Below are positions 29,206 through 49,475 of a stretch of 54,225 bases of DNA, piece after piece. The DNA lies in NCBI GenBank assembly GCA_903882745.1, contig CAIRYG010000006.1, positions 1 to 54,225 of the forward strand, in the 5' to 3' direction. Origin of the DNA: an uncultured Gemmatimonadota bacterium (GTDB taxonomy: Bacteria > Gemmatimonadota > Gemmatimonadetes > Gemmatimonadales > Gemmatimonadaceae). Position numbers and translations under genes: made by a program. Each line of letters begins with the position of its first letter. Positions within the stretch are counted from its first letter, which is position 1. The notes beneath the pieces were generated by a model that had not been told where the DNA came from, made no database searches, and was given only the letters and a program-made list of their open reading frames with translations.

Positions 29206-30891
29206 ATGTCCCCCGTCGATCCGAGTTCGTCTCCACGCGACAGTCGTCGTGAGTTCGTGACCAAGTCGCTGATGCTGGGCGCCGCGATGGTCTTGGCTCC
29301 GGAAGCCGCCGCGGGAGAGCGGCCGGCGGGTGCGCCGACCCCGGCACGCCCCGCACCAACCGGGGGCAGCTCGGCACGACAGGCACCGGCGCAGGACTCG
29401 CCCTTCGAGAAATCGGTGGGGGAGCTACAGGCCATGATGGCGCGCGGCGCCCTCACGTCGCGATCCCTGACGGAGTTTTACCTCGCCCGCCTCGACAGCT
29501 TGGACGCCAAGGGTCCCACGGTGAATAGCGTGATTGAGCGGAACCCCGACGCGCTCGCCATTGCGGAAACGATGGATGCCGAGCGTGCGGCGGGACGCAT
29601 CCGCGGTCCGCTCCACGGGATTCCGGTGCTCATCAAGGACAACATCGACAGCGCCGACCGGATGCACACCACGGCGGGCTCGCTCGCACTCGCCACCAGT
29701 ATCGCCCCGAAGGACGCGTTCATTGTCGAGCGCCTGCGCGCCGCAGGCGCGGTGATCCTCGGCAAGACCAATCTCAGCGAGTGGGCCAACTATCGGTCAA
29801 CGCGCAGCACCAGCGGCTGGAGCGGACGCGGCGGGCAGACCAAGAACCCGTACGTCCGCGACCGGAATCCCTGTGGCTCGAGTTCAGGCACTGGAGCCGC
29901 GATCGCCGCCGATTTCGCGGCAGTGGGTATCGGCACCGAGACCGACGGGTCAATCATCTGCCCGTCGTCGATGAATGGCCTGGTTGGACTGAAGCCCACG
30001 GTCGGGCTCTGGAGCCGCTCCGGGATTATCCCCATCTCCGCGTCGCAGGATACCGCAGGTCCCATGGGGCGCACCGTTGCCGACGTGGCCGCACTCTTGG
30101 GCCTCCTCACAGGAGTCGACCCACGCGACAGCGCCACCGCCGCGAGCAAAGGAAAGTCGCACACCGACTACACCACCTTCCTCGATGTGGACGGGCTGCG
30201 CGGCGCGCGCATTGGCGTTGCGCGCAACCTGGCGGGATTCAATTACAGCGTGGACGCGCGATTTGAGAGCGCCATCGATGCGATGGCCAAGGCCGGTGCG
30301 GTGATCGTCGACAAAACCAACTTCACCACGCTCGGCAAGTTTGACGAGGCCGAGTCGCTGGTGCTGGACTACGAGTTCAAAGCTGGGCTGAACGCCTATC
30401 TCGCGTCGCTCGGTGCATCGGCACCCGTGAAATCGCTGACCGAGTTGATTGCCTGGAACGAAAAGAACGCCGCGCGCGAGATGCCCTGGTTCGCGCAGGA
30501 GATTTTTGTGCGCGCCAACACGCGTGGCCCACTCACCGACCGCGCGTACCGTGACGCGCGCGCCACCTGCGTACGGCTCGCGCGCTCCGAAGGGATCGAT
30601 GCACTGATGGCGACGCATCGACTCGACGCGATCATCTGTCCGTCCAATCAGCCCGCTTGGCCGACGGACCCGTTGAATGGGGATCACTTCACCGGCGGGA
30701 ACACCTCGTTCGCAGCCGTCTCGGGGTACCCGAGCATCACCGTCCCAATGGGCTTCGACCACGAACTGCCGCTCGGGCTCTCGTTCATTGGGAAAGCGTG
30801 GAGCGAGCCCACCCTGTTGAAGTTGGCATGCGGTTTTGAACAGAAGACGCGCGCGCGCCGGGCCCCGCAGTTCCTTCCAACGCTCGGCTGA
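29206..30891 (+). CDS. Amidase signature family enzyme, Tat-exported
   Basis: A 561-residue hydrolase of the amidase signature family. A twin-arginine-like signal (DSRREFVTKSLMLGAAMVL) is followed by an Ala/Pro/Gly-rich linker to about residue 65. The Ser-cisSer-Lys triad is visible: Lys144 in VLIKDNID, Ser225 in NPCGSSSGTGAA, and nucleophile Ser249 in ETDGSIICPSS. The enzyme should hydrolyse an amide, possibly an amino-acid or peptide amide, in the periplasm. ACAGGAG lies a few bases before ATG 29206. The stop overlaps the start of the next gene (TGATG), so it is translated together with the serine hydrolase. Substrate not predictable from the motif set. Confidence 0.92.
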   Translation: MSPVDPSSSPRDSRREFVTKSLMLGAAMVLAPEAAAGERPAGAPTPARPAPTGGSSARQAPAQDSPFEKSVGELQAMMARGALTSRSLTEFYLARLDSLDAKGPTVNSVIERNPDALAIAETMDAERAAGRIRGPLHGIPVLIKDNIDSADRMHTTAGSLALATSIAPKDAFIVERLRAAGAVILGKTNLSEWANYRSTRSTSGWSGRGGQTKNPYVRDRNPCGSSSGTGAAIAADFAAVGIGTETDGSIICPSSMNGLVGLKPTVGLWSRSGIIPISASQDTAGPMGRTVADVAALLGLLTGVDPRDSATAASKGKSHTDYTTFLDVDGLRGARIGVARNLAGFNYSVDARFESAIDAMAKAGAVIVDKTNFTTLGKFDEAESLVLDYEFKAGLNAYLASLGASAPVKSLTELIAWNEKNAAREMPWFAQEIFVRANTRGPLTDRAYRDARATCVRLARSEGIDALMATHRLDAIICPSNQPAWPTDPLNGDHFTGGNTSFAAVSGYPSITVPMGFDHELPLGLSFIGKAWSEPTLLKLACGFEQKTRARRAPQFLPTLG

Positions 30892-32471
30892 TGCGCACTT
30901 TCTCTCGTAGGCTCATCGCGTTGAGTGTTGCCCTGCCCATGGCGCTCGCTGCGCAGGCATCCGCACCCGCCACGCCAGCTGCACCCCCGCCAGGCTTTGA
31001 CAGCTACGTCCAGAAAGTGCTGGCCGCCTTTCAGGTACCGGGTGTCGCGGTTGCGATTGTGAAGGACGGGCGCGTGGTACTCGCCAAAGGGTATGGGGTT
31101 CGCACACTCGGCAAACCGGAGCAGGTCGATTCGCTGACGCGCTTCGGTATTGCATCCAACACCAAGGCGTTCACGGCCACTGCACTCGCAATCCTCGTGG
31201 AGCGTGGCAAGCTCAAGTGGGACGAGCCGGTGCGCACATACCTGAAAGACTTCGCGATGTATGACCCCTTCGTCACGCGCGAGATCACCGTGCGCGACCT
31301 GCTCGTTCACCGCAGTGGCCTCGGGCTCGGTGCGGGCGACCTGCTCTGGTGGCCCGCCTCGACCTACACCCGCGCCGAGATTGCGCAGCGACTGCGCTAC
31401 ATCAAGCCGGCAACGTCGTTCCGCAGTGCCTACGCCTACGACAACGTGCTGTATCTCGTGGCCGGCCAGTTGATCGAAAAGATCAGCGGGCAGTCGTGGG
31501 AGACTTTCATGAGCACTGAGTTGCTCAATCCGCTGGGGATGTCGCACAGCAGCGTGCGGCACGCCGATGCGGCGTCCGGCGGCAACGTGGCCACAACGCA
31601 CGCCGAGGTGGACGGCACGGTGGTCGCGGTACCCCCGATGACCAGCGACAATACCAATCCCGCTGGAGGCATCAACGCGGGCGCCGCCGATATTGCGCGC
31701 TGGATGATCACGCAGCTCGACTCGGGGCGCACCCCAGAGGGCAAGCGCCTCTGGTCGCCGGCCTCAGCGCGCGAACTGTGGACAGGGGTCACCCCCATGC
31801 CCATTGGTGGCAGTGTGCCCGCGCTGGCGCCGCTGCGCCCCAGCTTCAACCTCTACGGACTCGGCTTCGGGGTGCGTGATTATCGCGGGGTGAAGATGCT
31901 CTCGCATACCGGAGGACTTCCGGGCTACGTATCTGAGATCTTGATGCTGCCCGATCAAAAGATCGGAGTCGCGGTGTTCACCAATCAGGAATCATCGGCC
32001 GCCTTCCGTTCAATCACGCTCGCGGTGCTCGATCATTACCTCGGGGTGAAGCCGGCCTGGGACTGGCTCGGCGCGTACACCACGCTAGCCGCGCAACAAC
32101 GTACCGAACTCGCCAGCGCGACCACCAAGGAAACGGCGCGTGACACCACCGTGCGCCCAACCCTGCCCCTGCCGAAGTACGCCGGCACCTACAGCGACGT
32201 GTGGTATGGCGACGTCACGGTGGGCTCCGCCAATGGACAGCTCACGATGCGTTTCTCTCACACGCCGGAACTCACCGGCGTGCTCGAGCACCAGAAAGGC
32301 GACGCCTTTATTGTGCGCTGGAAGGATCGGTCGCTCCGCGCCGACGCCGTCGTGACGTTCGACGTGAAAGCGGGCGCTGTGACCCGCGTGCGCATGGTCC
32401 CGACACCGGGCGTCGATTTCAGTTTTGATTTTCAGGACCTTGATCTGCGTCCGAAGCGCGGCGGAAAATAG
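30891..32471 (+). CDS. Serine hydrolase, beta-lactamase class C / esterase type
   Basis: A 526-residue exported enzyme. The signal peptide ends LAAQA. The catalytic motifs of the class C beta-lactamase/D-aminopeptidase/EstB superfamily are complete: SNTK (Ser89, Lys92), Y-D-N (Tyr183, Asn185) and HTG (339-341). After about residue 400 a DUF3471-like beta-rich tail follows (LPKYAGTYSDVWYGDVTV...), common in such hydrolases. It could act on D-amino-acid peptides, esters or lactams; true beta-lactamase activity is not implied. Coupled to the upstream amidase through an overlapping stop/start. Confidence 0.9.
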   Translation: MRTFSRRLIALSVALPMALAAQASAPATPAAPPPGFDSYVQKVLAAFQVPGVAVAIVKDGRVVLAKGYGVRTLGKPEQVDSLTRFGIASNTKAFTATALAILVERGKLKWDEPVRTYLKDFAMYDPFVTREITVRDLLVHRSGLGLGAGDLLWWPASTYTRAEIAQRLRYIKPATSFRSAYAYDNVLYLVAGQLIEKISGQSWETFMSTELLNPLGMSHSSVRHADAASGGNVATTHAEVDGTVVAVPPMTSDNTNPAGGINAGAADIARWMITQLDSGRTPEGKRLWSPASARELWTGVTPMPIGGSVPALAPLRPSFNLYGLGFGVRDYRGVKMLSHTGGLPGYVSEILMLPDQKIGVAVFTNQESSAAFRSITLAVLDHYLGVKPAWDWLGAYTTLAAQQRTELASATTKETARDTTVRPTLPLPKYAGTYSDVWYGDVTVGSANGQLTMRFSHTPELTGVLEHQKGDAFIVRWKDRSLRADAVVTFDVKAGAVTRVRMVPTPGVDFSFDFQDLDLRPKRGGK

Positions 32472-32528
32472 GACGCAACAGGCGCAGGGCACACGACAGC
32501 AGCTCACACTTCGGCGACGGAGCCATCG

Positions 32529-34298
32529 GTGAACATTCTGTTGGTACACGGCATTGGGCACTGCGACAGCGACAGCGATTACTACGCCAGCTGGCGACAG
32601 GTCATTACCGCAGCGCTGCAGGGGGCGGGAGCCACGACGCCCCCGACTTTCACAGAATTTGCGTACGACGATCTCTTTGAGGCGCGCTACGCAGGCCCCG
32701 ACCTCTATGCCGGTGCGCTCCTCGAACTGACGGGAAGTGTCGCGCTGCACGGACTCTCCGACGGGATGGCCGCAGGAACCGATCACACGCGAGCACTCGA
32801 ATCTCCCGCCGACTGGATGCGCTGGCGACTCGGTATGGTGTCCCAGTTCGTGGTTGATTCCGCCTTGCGGCGGCAGCTGCGCAATCGGCTACACCGCGCC
32901 GTCACGCTGAACCCGCCAGACATCATAGCGGCGCACAGCCTCGGCTCGCTCGTGACGTTCGACTATCTGCGCAACGACCCGCGCGCCGCGCTGCCCACCA
33001 GCACGTTGGTGACCTTCGGTTCTCAAATTGGAAATCTGTTTGTGCGCAATCGCCTCTGGCCGGGACGCTTCACGCTCCCGCCAGTCAAGCGCTGGTTCCA
33101 GCTGTTCAACCCCGAGGACCACGTCTTTACCGCGGAGATTCCGCTACAGGGATCACCGGAGTTTACGGAAGTTCGCACACCAAGCGCAGCGGGACACGCC
33201 CCCACACGATCCGCTGACGGCCCGGGCTATCTCGACCACGAAGCAACCCAACGGGGCGTCTGGTCGGTGCTCGCCACTCCTGCCGCCACACGCGAGTTCA
33301 CCCGCGCCGCCGCCGTCCAGCGCTTGTCACAGCGGAAGCCGCGTCGCCGCGCGTTACTCATTGGCATCAATGCGTATCCCGATCCTGCGCATCGACTGGC
33401 TGGCTGCGTCAACGACACGTTCCTGATGTCGAGCCTTCTGCAAGAACGCGGATTCGACCCCACCGACATCCGTGTCCTGCTCGACGCGCGCGCGACCGCC
33501 AGCGCGATTCGCACCCGTCTTGCGTGGCTCCTCGACGGCGCGGACGATGGCTGCGAACGGGTGCTGTTCTATAGCGGACACGGAGCGCAACTGCCGGGCT
33601 ACTCCGCTTCGGAAACCGTCGATCACGTGGACGAATGTCTGGTGCCGTACGACTTTGACTGGTCGCTCGAGCGCGCAATCACCGACAACGACTTCTTCCG
33701 CCTCTACAGCGAGCTGCCATTCAGCGCGCGATTCTCCGCGATCCTCGACTGCTGCCACGCGGGAGGCATGACCCGAGATCGTGGCCTTCGGGATGGTGGC
33801 CTTCGTGACGGTGGCCCGCGCATGCGCGGACTCACACCGCCCGACGATATTCGCCATCGCCAGCTGCAATGGGATGGCGAGCAGCAGTGCTGGTCGTCGC
33901 GGTCGTTGCGACCGATCAGTGCGCGCTACCGGCGCACCACCGATGCGCCGATGACGGGCCTCGGCCGCGCCACCTACCGACTTGGGCGCGGGATGCGACT
34001 ACGTGGACCACTGAGCCGCGCCACCGAACAGCGATTGATTGCGCAGCAACGGGGGCTCTATCTGCCCGTCTTGTTCGAGGCGTGCGGTGAAGGCGAGCTC
34101 GCGCAGGAATACCGACATGGGGCCGAGTCGTATGGTGCCTTCACCTGGACACTCGCCGCCGCCTTACGTCGCTCGCCGCGCATGAGCTGGGAACGCCTGC
34201 AGCGGGTGGTCAGCGCCGACTTCGCGGTGCGGGGCTACAACCAACGCCCCGTGCTCGTCGGCGCGTCGGCGCCAGTACGACGCCGCGCACTGTCCTAG
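32529..34298 (+). CDS. Fusion of an alpha/beta-hydrolase with a caspase-like (C14) peptidase
   Basis: A 589-residue cytoplasmic protein with no signal peptide. Residues 1-250 look like an alpha/beta-hydrolase: MNILLVHGIG strand, nucleophile elbow AHSLGS with Ser137, VTFGSQIG, and Asp/His candidates in NPEDH (197-198) and YLDH (237). Residues 274 to about 570 are a caspase/metacaspase fold: RALLIGINAYPD, catalytic His351 in YSGHG, and catalytic Cys409 in DCCHAGG. The linker (about 258-275) is strongly basic (QRLSQRKPRRR), and an Arg-Asp-Gly repeat (RDRGLRDGGLRDGG) follows the active-site Cys; both are candidate self-cleavage regions for an Arg/Lys-specific peptidase. GTG at 32529 has GGAG at good distance. 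A stand-alone gene between the hydrolase pair and a convergent peptidase. Confidence 0.85.
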   Translation: MNILLVHGIGHCDSDSDYYASWRQVITAALQGAGATTPPTFTEFAYDDLFEARYAGPDLYAGALLELTGSVALHGLSDGMAAGTDHTRALESPADWMRWRLGMVSQFVVDSALRRQLRNRLHRAVTLNPPDIIAAHSLGSLVTFDYLRNDPRAALPTSTLVTFGSQIGNLFVRNRLWPGRFTLPPVKRWFQLFNPEDHVFTAEIPLQGSPEFTEVRTPSAAGHAPTRSADGPGYLDHEATQRGVWSVLATPAATREFTRAAAVQRLSQRKPRRRALLIGINAYPDPAHRLAGCVNDTFLMSSLLQERGFDPTDIRVLLDARATASAIRTRLAWLLDGADDGCERVLFYSGHGAQLPGYSASETVDHVDECLVPYDFDWSLERAITDNDFFRLYSELPFSARFSAILDCCHAGGMTRDRGLRDGGLRDGGPRMRGLTPPDDIRHRQLQWDGEQQCWSSRSLRPISARYRRTTDAPMTGLGRATYRLGRGMRLRGPLSRATEQRLIAQQRGLYLPVLFEACGEGELAQEYRHGAESYGAFTWTLAAALRRSPRMSWERLQRVVSADFAVRGYNQRPVLVGASAPVRRRALS

Positions 34299-34325
34299 CC
34301 CGTTCGGTTTTATCTGGCTCCGTGC

Positions 34326-35867
34326 CTACGGCTTCGCGAGGAGTTTGGCCATGAGCGCGTCAGCGATCGACTTGGCATCCGCGGCATCGTCGTTCGTGAG
34401 TACAATGACCGTGGCGTGGCGGTCCGGCACGCGCACGAAGGCGCTGCGCTTTCCGGTCTCGGTGCCGTAGGCCGCATAGCGCGTCACGCCACCCGCAGTC
34501 TCGGTCTTCCATCCCTGCGTGGCGTCAATCGGATCGCGCGTGGCCGACGTGTCGGCCGCGGCGCCGCGTGTGTAGGTGCGCGGCTGCTCGAGTCCGAGCG
34601 CCAGGCGATACAGCTCGTCAACATTGGAGAGCACATCGCCGGCATCAGTCGCGGTCGTTTTGTGTAAACCGACGGGAGTCGACGCGCGCTGCGTCACGCA
34701 CCGCTGGAACGCTGTCTGCGGCGGAGTGGCAGCACGGCCACGTCCTGCGGCCGAATCGGGGGCAGCGGCGCCGCCCGCACGCCCGCGGCCCGCGGGCTCG
34801 GGAACCTGCGCGCAGATAGCTTCGAAGACGGCCGACATGCGACCGAGCGAAAAGTTCGGCACTGTGGTCGTCGGCATGTACCGCGCCTGCGCCGGAATAC
34901 CGAACGACTGATCCACAAACACCTTGCCGTCCTTGGCCACCAGCACGGTTGCACCACCAGCAGCGGCGTTCTCGTACTTGGCAAAGAGTGACTTCACCAA
35001 CGACGGAGCAACCGGCGACTCGCTTGCCACACGATGCAACATTTTCCGTGCACCGAGGTCGTAGCGATCGCCAGGATGCAGCGTCAGGAATGGACTCCCG
35101 GGGTCGGTGGCATCCTTGCCGTTGTATACAAATCCACGATTCCGACCAATGATCGTTCCCGTGTCGCCGCGCACAACCCACGCCGTTCCTTCGTCCTCGG
35201 AAATCGCCAACAGCGTGGGGTACTTGGGAATAATCGAGTCGGCGAGATCCGGAAGCCGCTCACGCGCCACCACGTGCTGATCAATGCCAACACCACGCAG
35301 ATAGGCGAAGCCCTTCTGGTAGCCGGGGGAGTCCATAATGAAGTTGTTGTTCGACGGCGCGCCGCGCACCAAGAAGTCGCCAAGGATTGACGCACCCGCC
35401 GACGATCCGGCCACAACGCCACCGCGTGCGAGCAGCTCATTGAACGCGGCTTCGGTCTTGGTGCCAGCGTAGGCATCTACCAAGTGAAACTGGCGCCCGC
35501 CTTCGAACCAAATACCACCGGCCTTCTTGATCAACGCGACGAATGCGTCGCTGTCGGCAACTTTGCGATCCGTCGTGAACAAGACCTGCACATTGTGCGC
35601 GCCATTCTGCTTCCAGCTGCGCGTATTCGATCCCTCGGCGGGATAGCTCTCCGCCCCACCAGCATTGGGTACAGTGAGGATCAGCGCATCGGGCCCACCC
35701 GCTGCGTCGATAAACGCCTTGTACACCTCGGGTCCCATGGAGCCACCGCCCACCACAATCACGGTGCCCTTTGCGGGCCCGACCTTGAGCGTGCCCTTTG
35801 AGGCTTGTGCCGTGAGCACAAGAGGAACGCAGCTGAGGAGCAACGCGAAGCGGCGAATGGCAAACAT
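34326..35867 (-). CDS. Cyanophycinase-like S51 peptidase with degenerate beta-lactamase-like domain
   Basis: A 513-residue exported protein. The signal peptide ends LTAQA. Residues 30-285 match the cyanophycinase/peptidase S51 fold: GTVIVVGGGSMGPEVY, the nucleophile motif GSSAGAS with Ser156, and GIDQHVVARERLPDL (about 194-208). From about 305 the sequence resembles a class C beta-lactamase domain (GATVLVAKDGKVFVDQSFGI, then SLGRMSAVFEA) but the SxxK motif is lost: the Ser and Lys positions are Arg343 and Ala346. The C-terminal part (YAAYGTETGKRSAFVRVPD...VIVLTNDD) also fits that family. An Ala/Gly-rich insert splits the tail. ATG at 35867 has AGAGG just upstream. Likely acts on peptides or Asp-containing polymers outside the cytoplasm. 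Confidence 0.82.
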   Translation of the reverse strand: MFAIRRFALLLSCVPLVLTAQASKGTLKVGPAKGTVIVVGGGSMGPEVYKAFIDAAGGPDALILTVPNAGGAESYPAEGSNTRSWKQNGAHNVQVLFTTDRKVADSDAFVALIKKAGGIWFEGGRQFHLVDAYAGTKTEAAFNELLARGGVVAGSSAGASILGDFLVRGAPSNNNFIMDSPGYQKGFAYLRGVGIDQHVVARERLPDLADSIIPKYPTLLAISEDEGTAWVVRGDTGTIIGRNRGFVYNGKDATDPGSPFLTLHPGDRYDLGARKMLHRVASESPVAPSLVKSLFAKYENAAAGGATVLVAKDGKVFVDQSFGIPAQARYMPTTTVPNFSLGRMSAVFEAICAQVPEPAGRGRAGGAAAPDSAAGRGRAATPPQTAFQRCVTQRASTPVGLHKTTATDAGDVLSNVDELYRLALGLEQPRTYTRGAAADTSATRDPIDATQGWKTETAGGVTRYAAYGTETGKRSAFVRVPDRHATVIVLTNDDAADAKSIADALMAKLLAKP

Positions 35868-36054
35868 GGAAACCTCTATGTGGTGACGGTGCACGGGAAC
35901 GCTGCCAACAGAAGATGCGCCACCGCGTCACCCTCGACAAGCACCACCCCTGCCTCACGTTCTGCGCTCCCTGTCCTGCGCTCCTTGCTAGTTCTGCGCC
36001 ATATTTATCACATCGACCGCCCCCTGCGGTTCCTTCACGACCCACAGCTCTCTT

Positions 36055-37854
36055 ATGCATCGACTCAGCGTAGTTCTTTCTCGCGTCGCGCGTCGCGCAC
36101 GCCTGCGCACCACCATCGGCGCGGCGCTCGCCCTTCTGACCGCCACGGCACACCTCCTGGCCGCGCAGGCACCAGCCCCGACGGTCGGGCCAGACCTCGG
36201 CAAACGGGTCGTCGCCGATCACGGTGTGGTTGCTGCCGGCAACGCGTATGCGAGCGACGCTGGGCTTGAGATGCTCCGCCAGGGCGGATCGGCCATCGAC
36301 GCCGCGGTGGCTACCGCCTTTGCGCTCGGCGTCACCGAGCCAATGATGAGCGGGCTCGGCGCGGGTGGCGGACTTCTGTATTACGACGCTAAAACCAAAC
36401 ACGCCGAATACCTCGATTTCTACAGTGCGTCCGGCAGCATCGTCGACCTGGGACTCCGCTCCACTACCTCCACCGCGACACCGCGCGGCGTGGGAATCCC
36501 AGGCGCCGTGCGCGGGCTGCTCGCCGCGCACGCGCGTTACGGCAAGTTGCCGGTCGCCGCGGTGCTCGCTCCAGCGATCCGGCTCGCCGGCGAAGGCTAC
36601 ACCGCCAACGCCCTGCTCGCCCGAGAAGTCGCGGTGAGCATTGAGAAGCTCTCCGCCACTGGCGCCAAGGCGATCTTCCTGCCGGGCGGCAAGCCAGTGC
36701 GCGCGGGTGATCACATTGTGCAGCCCGAGCTCGCGGCCACCCTTCGCACCATTGCGGCGCAGGGTGCCGATGCGTTTTACGCAGGCGCGATTGGCGACCA
36801 CATCGTACAAACGCTGCGCGATGCGGGCTCCACCATCACGCGCGCCGATTTCGCAGCCTACCAGCCGCAGTGGACCCGCCCGGTGTGCACGATGTACCAC
36901 GGCCGAGTGGTGCTCTCCGCCGCAGCGCCGCAGTCGGGAATGCAGGTGATTGAGGCGCTGAACCTTGTCGCGGGGCGAGATCTCCCCGCGCTCGGCCTTC
37001 CGAGCCGCAACGCCGACGCCTTCCGGGTGATGACTGGCGCGCTGCGCATTGCCGTGACCGATCGCGATGCCGTTGTTGGCGATCCGTCGAAGGTTGCCGT
37101 GCCAATGGCTGGGGTGACCAGCACCGCGTACGCGGCAACGCGCGCCTCGTTGGTGGACGCCCCTGCACAGCCACGCCTCCCCGCCGGCGACCCCTGGTCG
37201 TATGAAAAGGCGCCTACCGGCGATTGCGCGGTGTTGGCCGCGGCTCCCGTGTCTACGGTGCAGCCGCGCCCCGCCGCCCCGGGCACGCCGGGCGATGGCG
37301 CGATGTCGGAAACGACGCACATGTCGGTCGTGGACGACGCGGGGAACGCCGTGTCGATTACGAACACGCTTGGCCTGGGCTTCGGCACTGGTACCTGGGT
37401 AGACGGGGTGTTCCTGAACAGCGCGCTGTTCAACTTCGCGCGCGACGCGGCCTCCCCGAACGCACCCGGCCCGTTCCGCATTCCCGCCTCGACCATTGCC
37501 CCAACCATCATTCTGAAGGACGGCGCGGTGGAGATGGTGGTGGGCTGCCCGGGGTCACCGGCGATTCCGCCGGCGATTGTGCAGACGATCGTCTACGTGC
37601 TCGACTACCACTTGGATCCGATGCAGGCGCTGCGGATCCCGCGGATGATCCCCTCCTCGTCCGGGGTGGGGCTCCGTATGGAAGATGGGTTCGCCGAGGG
37701 GGTGTATGCGGAGGCCAAGCGGTTGGGGTATGAGGTCGCTGTGTCACCGCCCGTGGATATGGGATTTGGCGGGGTGCATGTGATTGCCCGGATTGGCGGG
37801 CGCTGGGTGGGAGCGGCCGACCCCCGAAGAGATGGCGAAGTCCGAGGCATGTAG
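36055..37854 (+). CDS. ggt: Gamma-glutamyltransferase
   Basis: A 599-residue exported precursor that should self-cleave into large and small subunits and transfer or hydrolyse gamma-glutamyl groups. A signal peptide ends HLLAAQA. Conserved pieces include NAYASDAGLEMLRQGGSAIDAAVA, GLGAGGGLLYYD and TPRGVGIPG. The autoprocessing site precedes the nucleophile Thr in ETTHMSVVDDAGNAVSITNTL. The oxyanion-hole motif, normally GSPGG, reads GSPAIPP here, a notable change that is compatible with a divergent subgroup. The gene follows the divergent cyanophycinase-like gene and precedes the SusC/SusD pair. No good ribosome binding site is visible before ATG 36055. Confidence 0.9.
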   Translation: MHRLSVVLSRVARRARLRTTIGAALALLTATAHLLAAQAPAPTVGPDLGKRVVADHGVVAAGNAYASDAGLEMLRQGGSAIDAAVATAFALGVTEPMMSGLGAGGGLLYYDAKTKHAEYLDFYSASGSIVDLGLRSTTSTATPRGVGIPGAVRGLLAAHARYGKLPVAAVLAPAIRLAGEGYTANALLAREVAVSIEKLSATGAKAIFLPGGKPVRAGDHIVQPELAATLRTIAAQGADAFYAGAIGDHIVQTLRDAGSTITRADFAAYQPQWTRPVCTMYHGRVVLSAAAPQSGMQVIEALNLVAGRDLPALGLPSRNADAFRVMTGALRIAVTDRDAVVGDPSKVAVPMAGVTSTAYAATRASLVDAPAQPRLPAGDPWSYEKAPTGDCAVLAAAPVSTVQPRPAAPGTPGDGAMSETTHMSVVDDAGNAVSITNTLGLGFGTGTWVDGVFLNSALFNFARDAASPNAPGPFRIPASTIAPTIILKDGAVEMVVGCPGSPAIPPAIVQTIVYVLDYHLDPMQALRIPRMIPSSSGVGLRMEDGFAEGVYAEAKRLGYEVAVSPPVDMGFGGVHVIARIGGRWVGAADPRRDGEVRGM

Positions 37855-37948: not shown

Positions 37949-40900
37949 ATGGCACAAGCCTTTTCATCACGGTGGACCCGCCTGATCGCGGCTGCCATCC
38001 TTGCGGTCCCAGCACTGGGACATGCACAGGGTGGGGCGACGATTAGCGGCACCGTCAGCGAGCGAGGGTCGAACACCCCGCTCGAGCGTGCGCAGGTCAG
38101 CATTGTCGGCACGGCGAATGCCGTTGCCTCCGACGCCAAGGGCGGCTTTACGCTGCGTGGCGTTGACGCCGGCACGGTTACCGTGCGCGCCCAGTACATC
38201 GGCTACGAAGCCCGTGAACAGGTCGTGCAGGTTGCTGCCAACGGCACCGTGCGCGTGAACTTTGCGCTGTCCCGCACCGCGGTGACGCTCTCGGGCGTCA
38301 TGGTGACCGCGACTGGTGAAGAGCGCCGTCGCTCGGTCGGTACGGCCATGGCCACTGTCGACACCGCGCAGATCGAGCGGTCGGCGGCCACCAACACCCA
38401 GCAGTTGCTCGCGGGCTCGACCCCGGGCGTCACGGTGTTGGCGAACGGCGGCCAGCCGGGCGCCGGTGCCACCGTCCGCCTCCGCGGCGTGAACAGCGTG
38501 AGCATGGGCAACAGCCCGCTCATCTATGTTGACGGCGTGCGTGTGTACGGCGGCAACACCCCGACCAACGTTGGCGGTCGTCAGTTCAGCTCGCCGCTCA
38601 ATGACATTGCGGCAGAAGACATCGACCACATTGAAATCGTGAAGGGCCCTGCGGCCACGACGCTCTACGGCACGGAAGCCTCCGGCGGCGTGCTGCAGAT
38701 CTTCACCAAGCAGGGTGTCGAAGGCGCGCCGCGCTGGAACCTGAGCGTGACCTCCGGCTACAACAACATGGGGCACGTGGGTCCGGCGTCGGACACCACC
38801 GGCCTCTTCCTGAACAGCTGCGCCGGCGTCCACACGATCGGCGATGGCACCAAGTTCCAGGATGCCACCTGCCCGGCGAGCGGGTCCTGGCTCTCCAATG
38901 GCCCGATCCAGCGTACCGCGATCAGTGTGCGCGGCGGCAGTGCCAACGGCACCACGTACGACCTCAGCGTCACCGGCAACAATGAGCGCGGCGTGCTTCC
39001 GGTGGGCGGCTCCTACGTCCGCTCGTTCCGCGTCAACCTCGGCTTCAAGCCGGCCAAGGGCTTCACGCTCAGCTTCAACCAGTCCTACGTGAACAACCGC
39101 TCGGTCGGGTTCCCGGACGGCAACAGCTCGAACGGCGTGATGCTCAACATCTCGCGTGGTTCCGGCTCGAACTTCAAGGGCCCGGGCTGCACCGATCTGA
39201 CCGTCACCTGCGTGCTGAACGACAGCCTGTTCACCTCGCAGGTCACCAGCAGCACGAACCACTTTGTCACCGGCGCCACGCTGGCCTACCAGCCGTTCGA
39301 CGCCTGGACGACGCGCCTCACGCTCGGCCTGGACTACAACAACGCCGACATCCAGTACATCACCCCGTTCGGTCACCTCCGTGTACCGCTCGGCCAGATG
39401 TATCAGACCCTCTGGACCCGTCAGTTCCTCTCGGCGGACTTGGCGTCGACGTATCGCAAGCAGATCGCCACGAACTGGAGCAGCAGCACCGCTGTCGGCG
39501 GACAGGTGTTCGAGAACAAGGTGTACTCGACCGACCTGCAGAGCGACAACTTCGCCGGCCCCGGCGACCCGACGCTCCTCTCGGGCGCGCTCAAGCAGAT
39601 CACCGGTGTCTCGCAGCAGCGCGTGATCAACGCCGGCTACTTTGCGCAGGAGACCATCGGCTGGCGTGATGTGCTCTTCGTGACCATCGGCGCCCGCGCC
39701 GACGGAAACAGCGCCTTCGGCAAGAGCTTCGGCATCCAGACCTACCCCAAGATCAGCGCCTCGTACGTGATCTCGGATGAATCGTTCTGGCCCCGCAGCA
39801 TCATTGAGACCCTCAAGCTGCGCGGCGCCATTGGCGACGCCGGCAAGGCGCCGGGCGCGTTCGACGCCGTCCGCACCTGGAGCCCCGTGGCCGCAGAAGC
39901 CGGCAAGCCGGCCTTCTCCACCAACCAGATCGGTAACCCCGACCTCGGTCCGGAGCGCACGCGCGAAATCGAACTTGGTTTCGACGCCAGTGCCTTCAAC
40001 GGCCGCGTGAACCTGCAGTACACGCACTTCGACCAGCACACCTACAAGGCGCTGATCCCGGTGCAGCAGGCTCCGTCGCTCGGTTTCGCGGGCTCCCAGC
40101 TGATCAACGCTGGCGACCTCATGAACTCGGGTCACGAAGTCCAGCTGAATCTCGACGTCTTCCGGAGCCGCAACCTCGATGTCAGCACCCGCATCGGCTT
40201 CATGAAGCTGCATAGCGAGGCCGGCAATGTTGGGAACGGGCCGCTGACGATTTTCGCCCTCGGCCGCACCTATGTTGTGCAGGGGCTGCCGATTCCGACG
40301 TACTACGGGCCGAAGGTCATGAACCCGAACGACTTCGCGAATCCGGTCATCCAGCAGAACCAAGATCTCGGCTCGGCCTTCGCCGACCGCATCTGGACCC
40401 CGGGCATCTCGGTCAAGCTGTTCCGGAGCATCACGGTTGATGCGCAGGGTGAGTGGCAGCTCGGTGGCCACAACCTGAACGCCTTGGCCTACCAGAATGC
40501 GAACTTGAACTCGTGGCAGCCGTGCTTCAACGCGCAGGACCAGATGCGCAAAGCCGTCGCCGGCGACTCCTCCGGGCTCGCCACCATCAATGCACTCGAT
40601 CGCGCGCGCTGCACGATCAACACCAAGATCGCGCGTGACTACGGCTTCTTTGTTGAAGCCAACGACTTCTTCAAGCTCCGTAGCGTCTCGGTGACCTACG
40701 ACCTGCCGAAGTCGATCCTGCGCTTCGGCGCGCGCTCGGGCTCGCTGGCGTTCGCTGGTCGTAACTTGTTCACCTCGACCAACTACAGCGGCACCGATCC
40801 GGAAGTTTCTGACCAGCGCGACGACCAGTTTGCCCGTCGCGATTACTACGTGTTCCCGACCTCTCGGTCGTTCACGATGACCCTCCGCCTGGGCTTCTGA
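37949..40900 (+). CDS. SusC/RagA-type TonB-linked outer-membrane transporter
   Basis: A 983-residue transporter. A signal peptide ends ALGHAQ. A carboxypeptidase-regulatory-like domain (TISGTVSERGSNTPLERAQV) is at about 30-110. The plug has LLAGSTPGVTVLANGGQPGAG, VRLRGVNSVSMGNSPLIYVDGV and IDHIEIVKGPAATTLYGTEA, the signatures of the SusC family. A large barrel ends RSFTMTLRLGF. Together with the adjacent SusD-like lipoprotein it forms a pedal-bin importer for oligomeric nutrients such as glycans or peptides. ATG 37949 has GGAGAG just upstream. The gene stop and the SusD start are two bases apart. Confidence 0.93.
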   Translation: MAQAFSSRWTRLIAAAILAVPALGHAQGGATISGTVSERGSNTPLERAQVSIVGTANAVASDAKGGFTLRGVDAGTVTVRAQYIGYEAREQVVQVAANGTVRVNFALSRTAVTLSGVMVTATGEERRRSVGTAMATVDTAQIERSAATNTQQLLAGSTPGVTVLANGGQPGAGATVRLRGVNSVSMGNSPLIYVDGVRVYGGNTPTNVGGRQFSSPLNDIAAEDIDHIEIVKGPAATTLYGTEASGGVLQIFTKQGVEGAPRWNLSVTSGYNNMGHVGPASDTTGLFLNSCAGVHTIGDGTKFQDATCPASGSWLSNGPIQRTAISVRGGSANGTTYDLSVTGNNERGVLPVGGSYVRSFRVNLGFKPAKGFTLSFNQSYVNNRSVGFPDGNSSNGVMLNISRGSGSNFKGPGCTDLTVTCVLNDSLFTSQVTSSTNHFVTGATLAYQPFDAWTTRLTLGLDYNNADIQYITPFGHLRVPLGQMYQTLWTRQFLSADLASTYRKQIATNWSSSTAVGGQVFENKVYSTDLQSDNFAGPGDPTLLSGALKQITGVSQQRVINAGYFAQETIGWRDVLFVTIGARADGNSAFGKSFGIQTYPKISASYVISDESFWPRSIIETLKLRGAIGDAGKAPGAFDAVRTWSPVAAEAGKPAFSTNQIGNPDLGPERTREIELGFDASAFNGRVNLQYTHFDQHTYKALIPVQQAPSLGFAGSQLINAGDLMNSGHEVQLNLDVFRSRNLDVSTRIGFMKLHSEAGNVGNGPLTIFALGRTYVVQGLPIPTYYGPKVMNPNDFANPVIQQNQDLGSAFADRIWTPGISVKLFRSITVDAQGEWQLGGHNLNALAYQNANLNSWQPCFNAQDQMRKAVAGDSSGLATINALDRARCTINTKIARDYGFFVEANDFFKLRSVSVTYDLPKSILRFGARSGSLAFAGRNLFTSTNYSGTDPEVSDQRDDQFARRDYYVFPTSRSFTMTLRLGF

Positions 40901-40902
40901 TA

Positions 40903-42120
40903 ATGACGACCCTTCGTAACTTCGGACGCCGTTCCATCGGTGTCGCCGCTGTGCTCTGCGCGGCCTGTAGCCTGCAGGTGACCAACCCGGGTCCGATTCA
41001 GGACTCGCAGCTCAATGCCGTCTCCGCCGTGCCCGCGCTCGTCAACGGCATGTCGGGCGATCTCTCCTATGCGCTCGGCAACTACGTCGATCGCGGTGGA
41101 CTGGCCTCGGGTGAGATGACCGAAGCGGGCAACTATTCCGCCGAGCAGCAGTATTGGTTCGGCATCATCCGTCCGGACGACGTCAATCCGGACTGGGCAG
41201 CCATGCAGCAGGCGCGGTGGTCGGCGGAGAACGGCATCGAGCGTATGAAGTCCGTGCTCGGCGCCAACTTCGAAAAGAACGTCGACACCCCACGTGCCTA
41301 TCTCTACGCGGGTTTTGCCAATCGGTTGCTCGGTGAGAATGTCTGCACCGGCGTGATCGATGGCGGCCCTGCGCAGAGCGACACCGTGTACTTCGTGCGC
41401 GCGGAAAGCCTCTTCACCCGCGCCTACACGATCGCCACGGCGCTCGCGAACACCAACGTGGCGAACGCTGCGCTCGGTGGCCGTGCCTCGGTGCGTGCCT
41501 GGCAGGGCAACTGGACGGCCGCGGTCGCCGATGCGGCGCTCGTGCCGAACGCGTTCGTGTACAACGCGATCTTCTCGACCAACAGCGCCCGTGAGAATCT
41601 GGACATGGCGGTTCAGACCATCTCGCGTCGTGAGGTCACGGTGTTCGGCACAGTGTATGCCACCATTTCCAAGACCGACCCGCGCACTCCGTGGGATACG
41701 GTCAAGGCTGGCACCGCCATCCAGACCGGACAGGACGGCAAGACCAAGTTCTTCCAGCAGAAGAAGTACACGTCGCTCGGCAGCCCGGTCCCGCTTGTTA
41801 AGGGCGCCGACATGTTGCTGATGCGCGCGGAGGCCGCCCTGCGCGCGGGCGACCTGGCTGGCATGACGACGCTGATCAATGCGGCGCGCGCCACCTGGAC
41901 GGGACTGACCCCTCTGACGGCTCCGGCCACGGTTGCCGCGGGCTGGACGATGCTGCAGGCTGAGCGTGGCTCGGCGCTGTGGCTCGAAGGGCGTCGCCTG
42001 TGGGATCTGCGCCGTTGGAATGCGGAAGGCACCAACACCTTCCTCACGGGCCGCAGCAAGTGCGTGCCGGTCAGCACCAACGAGCGTGCGTCGAACCCGA
42101 ACCCGATGCCAGCGCCGTAA
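40903..42120 (+). CDS. SusD/RagB-like surface lipoprotein
   Basis: A 405-residue nutrient-binding lipoprotein, partner of SusC. The lipobox is VLCAAC (Cys19 or nearby). The all-helical body contains TPR-like stretches (TPRAYLYAGFANRLLGENVCTGVI, ESLFTRAYTIATALA) and the C-terminal signature LLMRAEAALRAGDLAGMTTLINAAR followed by LQAERGSALWLEGRRLWDLRRW, characteristic of SusD/RagB. It is about 100 residues shorter than many SusD proteins, suggesting a compact binding face. Ligand unknown; the surrounding peptide and amide hydrolases favour peptides over sugars, which is an inference from context. Confidence 0.88.
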   Translation: MTTLRNFGRRSIGVAAVLCAACSLQVTNPGPIQDSQLNAVSAVPALVNGMSGDLSYALGNYVDRGGLASGEMTEAGNYSAEQQYWFGIIRPDDVNPDWAAMQQARWSAENGIERMKSVLGANFEKNVDTPRAYLYAGFANRLLGENVCTGVIDGGPAQSDTVYFVRAESLFTRAYTIATALANTNVANAALGGRASVRAWQGNWTAAVADAALVPNAFVYNAIFSTNSARENLDMAVQTISRREVTVFGTVYATISKTDPRTPWDTVKAGTAIQTGQDGKTKFFQQKKYTSLGSPVPLVKGADMLLMRAEAALRAGDLAGMTTLINAARATWTGLTPLTAPATVAAGWTMLQAERGSALWLEGRRLWDLRRWNAEGTNTFLTGRSKCVPVSTNERASNPNPMPAP

Positions 42121-42140: not shown

Positions 42141-42174
42141 CGAAGGGGCGTCGCTTCCAAGCGGCGCCCCTTCG
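42141..42174 (+). terminator. Terminator-like hairpin after susCD
   Basis: A 16-bp stem with one G-T pair (CGAAGGGGCG...CGCCCCTTCG) and a minimal CC loop begins 20 bases after the SusD stop. A strong T run is missing, so termination is likely but not certain. Confidence 0.65.
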
Positions 42175-42299
42175 TGCATCCGGGCATCCGGGCATCCGCG
42201 AATCAGCACACGAGAGCCCTTTCGCTCGGGCGCTCGCACGCGCAACTTTTCCACCAGCGGGACACACCTCCCCGCGCAGTCCCACTCTCGGAGCTCTGC

Positions 42300-43670
42300 A
42301 TGCGTCGTTTTCTTCGTGCCATCGTCCCGCTGACCTTTGCTGCGGTCGCAGCCTCCGTTGGTCAGGCCCAAACGCGCGGCGCGGCCGCCACAGCGCCGCT
42401 CAAGGCTGGCGAGCTCCGCCTCACGTATTTGGGGAACGCGGGATGGGAAATCACCGACGGCAAGAAGATCGTGCTCGTGGATCCCTTCCTCACGCAGTTC
42501 GCGCGCTGGACGCCGAAGGGGCCCGCCCCGGAAGTCGGCCCCAATGATCCGTATCCGGCCGACACGGCGCTGATCAATGCGCACGTCAAGAAGGCCGACT
42601 ATATCGTCATCACCCACGGGCACCCCGACCATGCGCTCGACGCCGGCTACATCTCCAAGCGCACCGGCGCGGTGATCATTGGCCACGAGACCGCGGCGAA
42701 TCTCGCGCGCGCCTACGACGTGCCAGACAGCAACATCATCACCGTGGTCGGCGGCGAAGATTATGAGTTCGGCGATTTCTCGCTGCGCGTGGTACCAAAC
42801 ATCCACAGCGCGCTCGACAAAAAGCACTATTTCAATAACGGTCGCGGCATTGTTGGGAATGCCCCCCGCGGGCTCAAGGCGCCGCTCAAGCGCAACGCCT
42901 ATGTCGAGGGCGGCAACCTCGCCTACATCCTGCGGATGGGTGGGCATGAAGTCTTGATCATGGGGTCCATGAACTATCTCGAGAACGAGATGGTTGGCCT
43001 GCGCCCCGACATCGCCTTGGTGGGTGCCAACAGTCAGCGCCTCGAGATTCACGATTTCACCGGCCGCCTGATGCGCGCGCTCGGCTCGCCGGCGCTGGTG
43101 ATTCCCTCGCACGCTGATGCGTACGGCGATCCGAACCCCACCGCCGGCGCGCTCGCTGACCGGAAGAAGTTCATTCAGGAAGTGGCTGCGTCGTCGCCTA
43201 CGAGCCGCGTGATTTCGCCTGTGTGGTTTGAGCCCATTGTGGTGCCCGCGCTCGCGCGTCCCGCAGCGACGGCGACCACCGGACGCCACGTGATTAATCC
43301 CCCCGGCATCGCGCCCCTTGTGCCGGCGTATTCGGTGGCGATTCGTGATGGCGATCAGGTGTTCGTCTCTGGCATGACCGGCATCAAGCCGGGCACGCAG
43401 GACATCATCGAGGGCGGCGTTGGCGCGCAGACGCGGCAGACCATGGAGAACATCCGGACGTCGTTACAGGCAACCGGTGCAACCATGGCGGACGTCGCTG
43501 AGTGCACCGTGTTCCTCATGGACATGGCCGACTACGCCGCCATGAACAGCGTGTACGTGGAGTTCTTCACGGTGAATCCGCCGGCTCGCGCGGCGATGGC
43601 CGTCACGGCGCTCCCCCGCCCCGCCGCGCGCGTGGAGATCAAGTGCAGTGCAAAGATCCACCTTCGGTAG
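42300..43670 (+). CDS. Fusion of a metallo-beta-lactamase-fold hydrolase and a RidA domain
   Basis: A 456-residue exported protein; the signal peptide ends VGQAQ. Residues 35-310 are an MBL-fold (UPF0173/UlaG-like) domain: YLGNAGWEI, VDPFLTQF, zinc motif THGHPDH with His106, His108, Asp110 and His111, and VVPNIHSA further on. Residues 330-456 are a RidA/YjgF domain: SVAIRDGDQVFVSGMTG, QTRQTMENIRTSLQATGATMADV, NPPARAAMAVTALP with the deaminase Arg430, and VEIKCSA with Glu446. RidA proteins hydrolyse reactive enamines/imines; the lactonase-like MBL half could supply or open a related substrate. ATG at 42300 starts the signal peptide; no clear ribosome binding site precedes it. Stands alone after susCD. 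Confidence 0.87.
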   Translation: MRRFLRAIVPLTFAAVAASVGQAQTRGAAATAPLKAGELRLTYLGNAGWEITDGKKIVLVDPFLTQFARWTPKGPAPEVGPNDPYPADTALINAHVKKADYIVITHGHPDHALDAGYISKRTGAVIIGHETAANLARAYDVPDSNIITVVGGEDYEFGDFSLRVVPNIHSALDKKHYFNNGRGIVGNAPRGLKAPLKRNAYVEGGNLAYILRMGGHEVLIMGSMNYLENEMVGLRPDIALVGANSQRLEIHDFTGRLMRALGSPALVIPSHADAYGDPNPTAGALADRKKFIQEVAASSPTSRVISPVWFEPIVVPALARPAATATTGRHVINPPGIAPLVPAYSVAIRDGDQVFVSGMTGIKPGTQDIIEGGVGAQTRQTMENIRTSLQATGATMADVAECTVFLMDMADYAAMNSVYVEFFTVNPPARAAMAVTALPRPAARVEIKCSAKIHLR

Positions 43671-47853: not shown

Positions 47854-49374
47854 TCACTGCGTGGTCGTGACGCCGAACAGATTGCGCTTCATCCCATCGT
47901 CCCAGCGTTCCATGCGCGCGGTGTAGTCACGCACGCGGTCGGGAAAGCGACCGGCGAGGTTGTAGGCCTCGCCAGGATCGGTCTTCAAATTGTACAGCAG
48001 CGGAAGCGGGCCGGTGGTCTGGCGCGTGAGCCAGCCGAGTTTCGCGTTGACCGGCAGCGGCCACACATAATGGTTGATCTTGCGAATGAACTTCCACTCA
48101 CCGGCGCGCATACTTTCGAGCGTCCCCTGGTGATAGAAGTACAGTTCTCGCGGCGTCGCCGGCGGCTCGGCGGGGTGCGTCAGGAGCGACGCCATCGAGA
48201 GGCCGTCGATGATTCGATCGGACGGCGTACGGATCCCGGCAAAACCCAACAGCGTGGGAAACACATCGATGTTCATAGCGGGCGAGTCGCAGAGCTGCCC
48301 ACGCGGTACCATGCCGTCCCAGCGCACGATCATCGGCACGCGGTGTCCGCCTTCGAAGCTCTGTCCCTTGCGGCCGCGGAATCCTGCGGGGCTACCGTCG
48401 TACCAGGGGCCGTTGTCGCTCGTGAAAATCACAATCGTATTCTTCTCTTGGCCCGCTTTCTTGAGCGTGTCCATAAGCCGACCGAAGTTCCAGTCGATCT
48501 CCTCTACGGCGTCGCCGTAGAGTCCGCCGGCCGAGGAGTCCTTGAACTGCGCGGAGGCAGCGAGCGGGCGATGCGGATAGGTGTGCGCGAGATAGAGGAA
48601 GAACGGCGTGTCCTTGCTCGACTCCACAATCTTGATTGCCTCATCCGTGTAGATGCGGCTGAGTTTTGTGCGGTCGGTGATCTCGGCTTCAATCTTCTCC
48701 CGGTCCCGGTAGAGCGGAAACGGGGTCATGTCGTTGCTGTGCGGCACGCCGTAGAAGCTCTGGAACCCGTGCTCCATGGGGTGGAACTGCGGAGACTTGA
48801 TAAAATCGCCGAGGTGCCATTTGCCGATCATGGCCGTGCGGTAGCCGCGCTGTTGGAGCGCGTCGCCGATGGCGATTTCGAAGGGGTTGAGCCCTTCGGC
48901 GCCGACTTCGGAGTCCATGTCCATGATTCCGGCCGCGCCGGCGGCGAATCCGATTTGATTCAGCAGCTTCACCTTCAGCGACGTGGCCCCAGAGAAGAGG
49001 GGGAAGTCGAGTCGCATGCGCTTTGGGTAGCGTCCGGTGAGGAGCCCCGCGCGCGACGGGGTGCAGACGGAGTCGCAGGCGTGGAAGTCGGTGAATCGGA
49101 CCCCCTGCGCGGCGAGGGCATCGATGTGGGGCGTCTTGACGGCCGTGCTGCCGTAGCAGCCGAGGTCGCCATAGCCCAGGTCGTCGCAGTTGACGAGAAT
49201 GATGTTCGGGGGGCGGCTCGTGAAGGCGGGATCGAGGCTGACAACGTCGCGAATCGCGCGGCGCGGCAGGAATGGCGCCGGGGTGTCTTGGCGGAAGTAG
49301 CAGGTGCCGGCCGCGAGTCCAACGCCGCCGATCGCGACGCCCCCGATGAATTTTCTGCGCGAGATCTTTGCCAT
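47854..49374 (-). CDS. Tat-exported sulfatase
   Basis: A 506-residue type I sulfatase. A twin-arginine signal (SRRKFIGGVAIGGVGLAAG) is at 5-23. The metal site begins NCDDLGYGDLGCYG (Asp64, Asp65). The formylglycine motif is CTPSR at 104-108, so maturation needs formylglycine-generating activity. GKWHLGD and the later FTSDNGPWYDG are further family signatures. It resembles arylsulfatase A-type enzymes acting on sulfated glycans or sulfate esters. ATG at 49374 gives the correct signal; a GTG 21 bases upstream is less suitable. No sulfatase-modifying gene is in the window. Released sulfate ester substrates could link it to the envelope or nutrient genes, but nothing here proves that. Confidence 0.93.
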   Translation of the reverse strand: MAKISRRKFIGGVAIGGVGLAAGTCYFRQDTPAPFLPRRAIRDVVSLDPAFTSRPPNIILVNCDDLGYGDLGCYGSTAVKTPHIDALAAQGVRFTDFHACDSVCTPSRAGLLTGRYPKRMRLDFPLFSGATSLKVKLLNQIGFAAGAAGIMDMDSEVGAEGLNPFEIAIGDALQQRGYRTAMIGKWHLGDFIKSPQFHPMEHGFQSFYGVPHSNDMTPFPLYRDREKIEAEITDRTKLSRIYTDEAIKIVESSKDTPFFLYLAHTYPHRPLAASAQFKDSSAGGLYGDAVEEIDWNFGRLMDTLKKAGQEKNTIVIFTSDNGPWYDGSPAGFRGRKGQSFEGGHRVPMIVRWDGMVPRGQLCDSPAMNIDVFPTLLGFAGIRTPSDRIIDGLSMASLLTHPAEPPATPRELYFYHQGTLESMRAGEWKFIRKINHYVWPLPVNAKLGWLTRQTTGPLPLLYNLKTDPGEAYNLAGRFPDRVRDYTARMERWDDGMKRNLFGVTTTQ

Positions 49375-49475
49375 GGTGTGCCCGTGAAGGTTCACTGCAA
49401 CTCGGTAAAGTATGGCGCAGGGACACGTCGTGCGCCACGCGCGCGACAGGCGTCACTCGGCGGGGGCACGAGCAT

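Follow-up and report, generated by a model that had tools for sequence, protein, structure and literature searches.

An exported protein joining a metallo-beta-lactamase-fold domain to a RidA domain in a Gemmatimonadaceae bacterium, and the recurrence of this pairing in related loci

The fusion gene and its surroundings

The window, the whole stretch of 54,225 nucleotides analysed here, was one complete contig (C6) of a genome of 3.06 Mb in 14 contigs. A gene on its forward strand encoded a protein of 456 residues in which a signal peptide was followed by a metallo-beta-lactamase-fold (MBL) domain and a RidA domain. The 456 codons and the stop formed one open frame (42300-43670) with an ATG start and no internal stop, and GGAG was found a few bases 5' of the start. 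The features of this gene and of the genes upstream were as follows:

29206-30891, + strand, amidase (Pfam)
30891-32471, + strand, PF00144 serine hydrolase (Pfam)
32529-34298, + strand, caspase-domain protein (Pfam)
36055..37854, + strand, exported gamma-glutamyltranspeptidase (GGT; PF01019)
37949..40900, + strand, SusC/RagA-like TonB-dependent receptor (TIGR04056, 367.2 bits, below the cut-off of 368.25)
40903..42120, + strand, SusD/RagB-like lipoprotein, the upstream neighbour (PF07980)
42300..43670, + strand, coding sequence of the exported MBL-RidA fusion (ORF analysis, Pfam; 456 aa)
42300..42368, + strand, Sec signal peptide, residues 1-23 (hydrophobicity and motif scans; cleavage between GQA and Q, by eye)
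42408..43265, + strand, MBL-fold domain, about residues 37-322 (PF13483/PF00753/PF12706; AlphaFold model; PDB matches 3x2y, 6hrg and 2wyl)
42612..42632, + strand, THGHPDH, residues 105-111, with predicted metal ligands H106, H108, D110 and H111 (family alignment)
42804..42806, + strand, H169, predicted site-1 ligand, position 196 in beta-lactamase numbering by alignment (58/58)
42963..42983, + strand, GSMNYLE, residues 222-228, with Ser223 at the position of the bridging Asp and N225 and E228 conserved (alignment)
43110..43118, + strand, H271, predicted site-2 ligand, and D273 (58/58 each)
43281..43667, + strand, RidA (YjgF/L-PSP) domain, about residues 328-456 (PF01042; PDB match 2dyy, 2.7e-24)
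43587..43589, + strand, Arg430, the catalytic Arg of Rid deaminases (aligned to the Arg of 2dyy)
43635..43637, + strand, Glu446 of the RidA domain (alignment)

Visual inspection and pattern scans both identified the N-terminus, MRRFLRAIVPLTFAAVAASVGQA followed by Q, as a typical Sec signal. Both domains scored above their Pfam cut-offs, with Lactamase_B_3 (PF13483) reaching 44 bits over residues 40-246 (cut-off 24) and Ribonuc_L-PSP (PF01042) reaching 102 bits over residues 343-452 (cut-off 27.3). The preliminary description of an exported MBL-RidA fusion was thus borne out by the signal, the two domains and the single frame, and its positions for THGHPDH, Arg430 and Glu446 were exact. Comparison with the nearest relative, L029, gave dN/dS values of 0.12 for the MBL domain and 0.10 for the RidA domain, so both are under purifying selection. 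The closest named relatives, among the best 80 of 475, were mostly from Gemmatimonadota. When the mature protein was used as a query against its own genome, eight further places were found, each matching the RidA part only.

The stretch 29206-37854 held a run of amide-bond hydrolases (the amidase, the PF00144 protein, an S51 peptidase and the GGT), interrupted by the caspase-domain protein; the S51 peptidase, which was cyanophycinase-like, lay on the other strand from the MBL-RidA gene. Export signals were recognised by eye in the amidase, the PF00144 protein, the S51 peptidase, the GGT and the SusD-like protein, and these surroundings suit a nitrogen-scavenging neighbourhood. The window's own neighbours were not conserved in the gene lists of relatives that were compared, and no SusCD pair was found beside the MBL in these lists, a possible exception being L032, in which an open frame whose start resembles that of SusC lay about 5 kb from the MBL. 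A common operon with SusC/SusD and the GGT was considered and rejected, as the 180-nt gap after the SusD gene holds a strong hairpin (42142-42176), which was not followed by a T-run. A consensus promoter and terminator scan found no terminator in this gap and was otherwise uninformative. The window also contained seven minus-strand tRNA genes (457-1266) and a sulfatase with a twin-arginine-like signal (47857-49395).

The two domains and their nearest characterised relatives

An alignment of 58 full-length MBLs of the family revealed that H106, H108, H111, D114, H169, R212, M224, N225, R256, H271 and D273 were invariant, and D110 was kept in 57 of the 58. Position 223 was Ser in 56 and Gly in two, whereas the same column in 28 distant UPF0173-like relatives was the Asp of a GDT motif in 26 and Gly in two; the profile alignment to TM_1162 also paired GSM with GDT. 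The alignment thus showed that the bridging Asp has been lost throughout the family and that all six predicted His/Asp ligands are retained. The predicted zinc ligands were intact, while the term "lactonase-like" in the preliminary description was not upheld, because the GDT Asp of 26 of the 28 distant relatives is Ser in 56 of the 58 family members. The residues H106, H108 and H169 on one side and D110, H111 and H271 on the other, together with Ser223, would make up a B3-type HHH/DHH set. This reading, drawn from the alignment, follows from the match to FEZ-1, a B3 enzyme listed with H116-H118-H196 and D120-H121-H263 and a Ser at 221 in Table 5 of PMC5531557; a passage of PMC7392888 calls HHH/DHH characteristic of B3. 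The inferred ligand set and Ser221 are shared with L1 and FEZ-1, but the family is far from subclass B3 by sequence and would not be placed in it (12.8 bits with model NF033105, whose cut-off is 240).

The AlphaFold model of the fusion had a mean pLDDT of 81 and a pTM of 0.68. Its MBL part matched UPF0173 TM_1162 (3x2y; Z 23.8, rmsd 2.5, 215 aligned), Igni18 (6hrg; Z 22.4) and UlaG (2wyl; Z 21.0), and the diiron hydroxylases CmlA and FrsH also matched the fold. The UPF0173 proteins TM_1162 and Igni18 and UlaG have the fold, the HxHxDH motif and both further His residues in common with the window MBL; however, the UPF0173 proteins (TM_1162 and 26 of the 28 distant loci) keep the bridging Asp, where the window MBL has Ser, and UlaG likewise has it in its GDT motif. 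The UPF0173/PRK00685 model NF001911 gave 57.5 bits, under its cut-off of 144, and the UlaG L-ascorbate-6-phosphate lactonase model NF008688 gave 16.8 bits against 306.

A search of plasmids in PLSDB found no fused MBL-RidA and four records with the MBL only. The best plasmid match was pSCAT of Streptomyces (Streptantibioticus) cattleya, with 35.6% identity over 279 aa, in a frame flanked by a NUDIX gene on one side and an S58 peptidase gene on the other, with a SARP-type regulator next to the S58 gene. We take this frame, for which PLSDB gave no annotation, to be ThnS from the gene order thnR-thnS-thnT-thnU; ThnS was the closest characterised relative that the searches found. The family profile scored 197.7 bits against ThnS and at most 115.6 against the 28 controls (at most 70.8 for the 26 UPF0173-like ones and 111-116 for L098 and L099). 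A quick tree placed ThnS in a clade of 62 with a support of 100, although long branches meet there. All six metal-ligand positions, N225, E228, R256 and D273 are shared; position 223 of ThnS is Thr, so that it likewise has no Asp at motif 4, and it appears by eye to be exported through a twin-arginine-like signal. It differs in its lack of a RidA domain, of M224 and of the GGEDY motif, in its long branch and in belonging to an antibiotic cluster. In a passage of PMC8115136, thnS is placed in the thienamycin cluster on a 1,809,491-bp plasmid of S. cattleya, and ThnS is reported to hydrolyse imipenem and, more weakly, penicillin, to cause ascorbate loss and to have nuclease activities unaffected by EDTA. 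Because its branch is long, ThnS is a lead for the predicted activity of the family and not an assignment, and transfer of its function is weak owing to that branch and to the broad, partly EDTA-insensitive activities reported.

Rid proteins have been studied as cytoplasmic guards against 2-aminoacrylate. The RidA part of the fusion matched the Rid structures 1x25 and 3v4d (Foldseek), although the loop around Arg430 was poorly predicted (pLDDT <50). The alignment of relatives agreed with the earlier statement that the active-site residues were intact: Arg430 was conserved in 12 rows of the first type (rid1), an equivalent Arg was present in 13 rows of the second (rid2), and the active-site Glu was kept across both. 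By its PF01042 score and these two residues the domain belongs to the Rid (YjgF/YER057c/UK114) superfamily, with 98.6 bits against the RidA subfamily model TIGR00004, below the cut-off of 106.25. It has PF01042 and the Arg/Glu pair in common with the Rid imine deaminases, but it is exported and fused. The 3x-RidA proteins, as described in an excerpt of PMC4433059, likewise hold a Rid domain within a larger polypeptide, but they fuse Rid to Rid only, whereas the window protein fuses Rid to an MBL.

Pairing, fusion and export among related loci

A scan of named genomes for relatives retained the best 80 of 475, from which 63 non-redundant related loci were taken for comparison, the window among them; 28 loci with distant MBLs, taken from the same scan, served as controls. 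L046, L049, L053, L056, L061, L074 and L086 lay on the same contigs as others and were dropped before counting, and the partial MBLs L092-L096 were left out of the 58-row tree. L085 and L087, which are near-identical, were both counted, and L092 and L094 came from one genome. In a sample of 200 genomes of the phylum, MBL relatives were found in 20 (E 1e-10), two of them distant with 29-30% identity, and the distribution within the genus was patchy.

RidA was fused to the MBL or adjoined it in 25 of the 63 related loci and in none of the 28 controls (Fisher p 2e-5, relatedness ignored). All 25 RidA domains shared the strand of the MBL and lay within 440 nt of it or in the same chain, and the architectures were as follows:

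Fused MBL-RidA: window, L032, L033, L034, L047, L048, L050, L051
RidA adjacent downstream of the MBL: L029, L030, L031, L037
Fused RidA-MBL: L038, L042, L045, L065, L066, L092
RidA adjacent upstream of the MBL: L060, L062, L068, L070, L083, L088, L096

In clade A of the 58-row tree (11 rows, support 100/99) RidA was present throughout, fused in eight and adjacent in three, of the PF01042 type and in the order MBL-RidA. Since the fusion is conserved in eight of these 11 members, it is not a chance event. The RidA of clade B belonged to a different subfamily, as PF14588 outscored PF01042 in both of the proteins scanned, and the fused RidA-MBL forms of clade B occupied a separate, well-supported part of the tree. 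The two domains were thus fused twice independently, in opposite orders and with two RidA subfamilies, and at least six changes between the fused and unfused states were needed on the tree. The search for the domain pair in other genomes therefore backed a functional link, which follows from the convergent fusions in opposite orders and the adjacency in the remaining RidA-bearing loci. RidA was not found nearby in the other 38 of the 63 loci, and the MBL can therefore work without RidA or with a distant one.

Several loci showed further arrangements. The downstream partner in L037 (L037:8099-10120) was an exported protein of 673 aa that combined three RidA domains with an Amidohydro_2 domain, and FG-GAP and creatininase-like genes were found near its gene. 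L051, whose genome is recorded as that of Sphingomonas sp. 35-24ZXX, carried the fusion with an adjoining creatininase gene; because this copy nests inside a Gemmatimonadota clade, its position in the tree suggests acquisition by horizontal transfer. In L080 (5914-7677), an MBL of the same family was fused to an M28 peptidase.

Export signals accompanied the pair in its separate and fused forms. The separate RidAs of L029, L030 and L031 bore signals of their own: that of L029 was a lipoprotein signal (LLTGC), and the RidAs of L030 and L031 began with a GTG overlapping the stop of the MBL gene and had a lipobox. A first, loose signal scan gave two false positives among the RidAs of the window's own genome (L003 and L008); a stricter scan still flagged L008 and missed some signals that were good by eye. 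The strict scan, applied to the question of whether the signal peptide is conserved, recognised signals in all 11 separate RidAs, in 12 of the 14 fusions and in 35 of the 51 MBL-only frames, compared with 6/28 in the controls. Three other RidAs of the window's own genome, L002 (C8:6722), L004 (C5:216535) and L005 (C14:12194), carried lipoprotein or Sec signals and were not linked to an MBL, so that an exported RidA is not peculiar to the fusion gene and, judging from these signals, seems common in the source organism. The export of RidA, presented earlier as an oddity, was supported but is less surprising in this genome. Both the MBL-RidA linkage and the export are well supported.

An exported FG-GAP propeller was nearby or fused in 29 of the 63 related loci and in none of the 28 controls (Fisher p 2e-6, relatedness ignored); 24 of these 29 matches lay within 405 nt of the MBL and 25 were on the same strand. 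The propeller was fused N-terminally in L034 and L048 and C-terminally in L032 and, by eye, in L050, where it was under the threshold used for the counts; these represent at least two more fusion events. An exported FG-GAP propeller homologue was also present in the window's own genome (C5:138595-139638; L130:5575-6726), unlinked to the MBL-RidA gene. Creatininase (PF02633) was nearby in seven of the 63 loci and no control, an enrichment that was not significant on its own (Fisher p 0.095, relatedness ignored). Amidohydro_1 was nearby in seven and eight of the 63 with two queries, FmdA in five, PALP in four, M19 in three and Amidohydro_2 in two, each against 0/28 controls, and the kinds of amide-hydrolase neighbours varied between lineages.

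A proposed extracytoplasmic reaction sequence

The recurrent pairing and fusion outside the cytoplasm, observed together with export signals and intact catalytic residues, points to a shared, so far undescribed extracytoplasmic reaction sequence. Our tentative proposal is that the protein catalyses two successive steps after export: the MBL would open an amide or lactam, and the enamine or imine released would be deaminated by RidA. The fusion would be exported by Sec, and its two linked enzymes would act in the periplasm or at the cell surface. The MBL, as a ThnS relative with a putative two-metal site of B3 type, would hydrolyse a C-N bond in an external nitrogen compound and so give, directly or after collapse of the product, an enamine or imine, which the RidA domain would hydrolyse to a carbonyl compound and ammonium. 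The window gene would then be a fused version of the exported pair of MBL and RidA, which often occurs together with an FG-GAP propeller and in certain genomes also with other amide hydrolases. We infer from the sequences compared that both domains are active, and likewise the bond cut, the order of the steps and the substrate.

The two domains might instead have a compartment and an operon history in common while acting on different substrates, with the MBL performing an unrelated hydrolysis and RidA clearing extracytoplasmic imines made by other enzymes, such as oxidases or dehydropeptidases; the fusion would then only secure co-export and equal amounts. This is possible, if on the doubtful side: the genome's three additional exported RidAs, which are encoded at MBL-free loci, the absence of RidA near 38 of the 63 related MBLs and the broad action of Rid proteins on imines, as stated in a section of PMC5619798, all speak for it, but fusions in opposite orders, two RidA subfamilies and strict same-strand adjacency exceed what co-export needs. 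An MBL acting as a lactonase or phosphodiesterase, with RidA working on a later amine-bearing intermediate, appears unlikely. The fold is nearest to UPF0173 and UlaG (3x2y, Z 23.8; 2wyl, Z 21.0), and some B3 enzymes also cleave lactones according to a portion of PMC7392888; against this, the GDT Asp is Ser or Gly in all 58 family members and the UlaG model gave 16.8 against 306.

RidA could also serve a structural purpose, forming trimers that bring MBL sites together, with the FG-GAP propeller as a binding module. Rid proteins are typically trimers and 3x-RidA proteins occur (an extract of PMC4433059), and the L037 neighbour is a 3xRidA-Amidohydro_2 protein; however, the deaminase Arg and Glu are kept and the RidA dN/dS is 0.10, although a scaffold would need neither residue, and RidA is often a separate protein, so we regard this role as quite improbable. 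That a missed frameshift or an assembly error had joined two genes was the concern behind an earlier caution. Separate-gene homologues do exist in three clade A members (L029, L030 and L031), but no missed stop or frameshift was found in the fusion gene, and the same short-linker junction recurs in eight loci including L051, which leaves an artefact with a negligible probability.

A literature search, judged by titles and the beginnings of abstracts, found no description of RidA being fused to an MBL or being exported. The GlcNAc1A pathway was considered as a precedent and rejected as no match, because a passage of PMC9537276 gives the RidA protein OngD no known role and assigns OngB and OngC to the cytoplasm. 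The novelty is the combination and the extracytoplasmic place, not either domain.

The most far-reaching version of the two-step proposal, which we consider a long shot, is an extracytoplasmic Rid system in which a lactamase-type MBL and an imine deaminase, fused at least twice, degrade lactams and, in the boldest form, carbapenem-like or other beta-lactams. If that form were true, the MBL would open the beta-lactam ring and leave a pyrroline enamine or imine, RidA would hydrolyse the imine, and an antibiotic would be irreversibly turned into food. Because enzyme and partner lie on one chain, the idea is directly testable with the fused proteins. The putative B3-like site in a ThnS-related family would be a new place to seek the origins of lactam hydrolysis. 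More generally, a conserved exported Rid protein, linked to an exported hydrolase through gene order and through fusions in both orders, would imply that Gemmatimonadota, Bacteroidota and Pseudomonadota normally use imine chemistry in their extracytoplasmic nitrogen metabolism.
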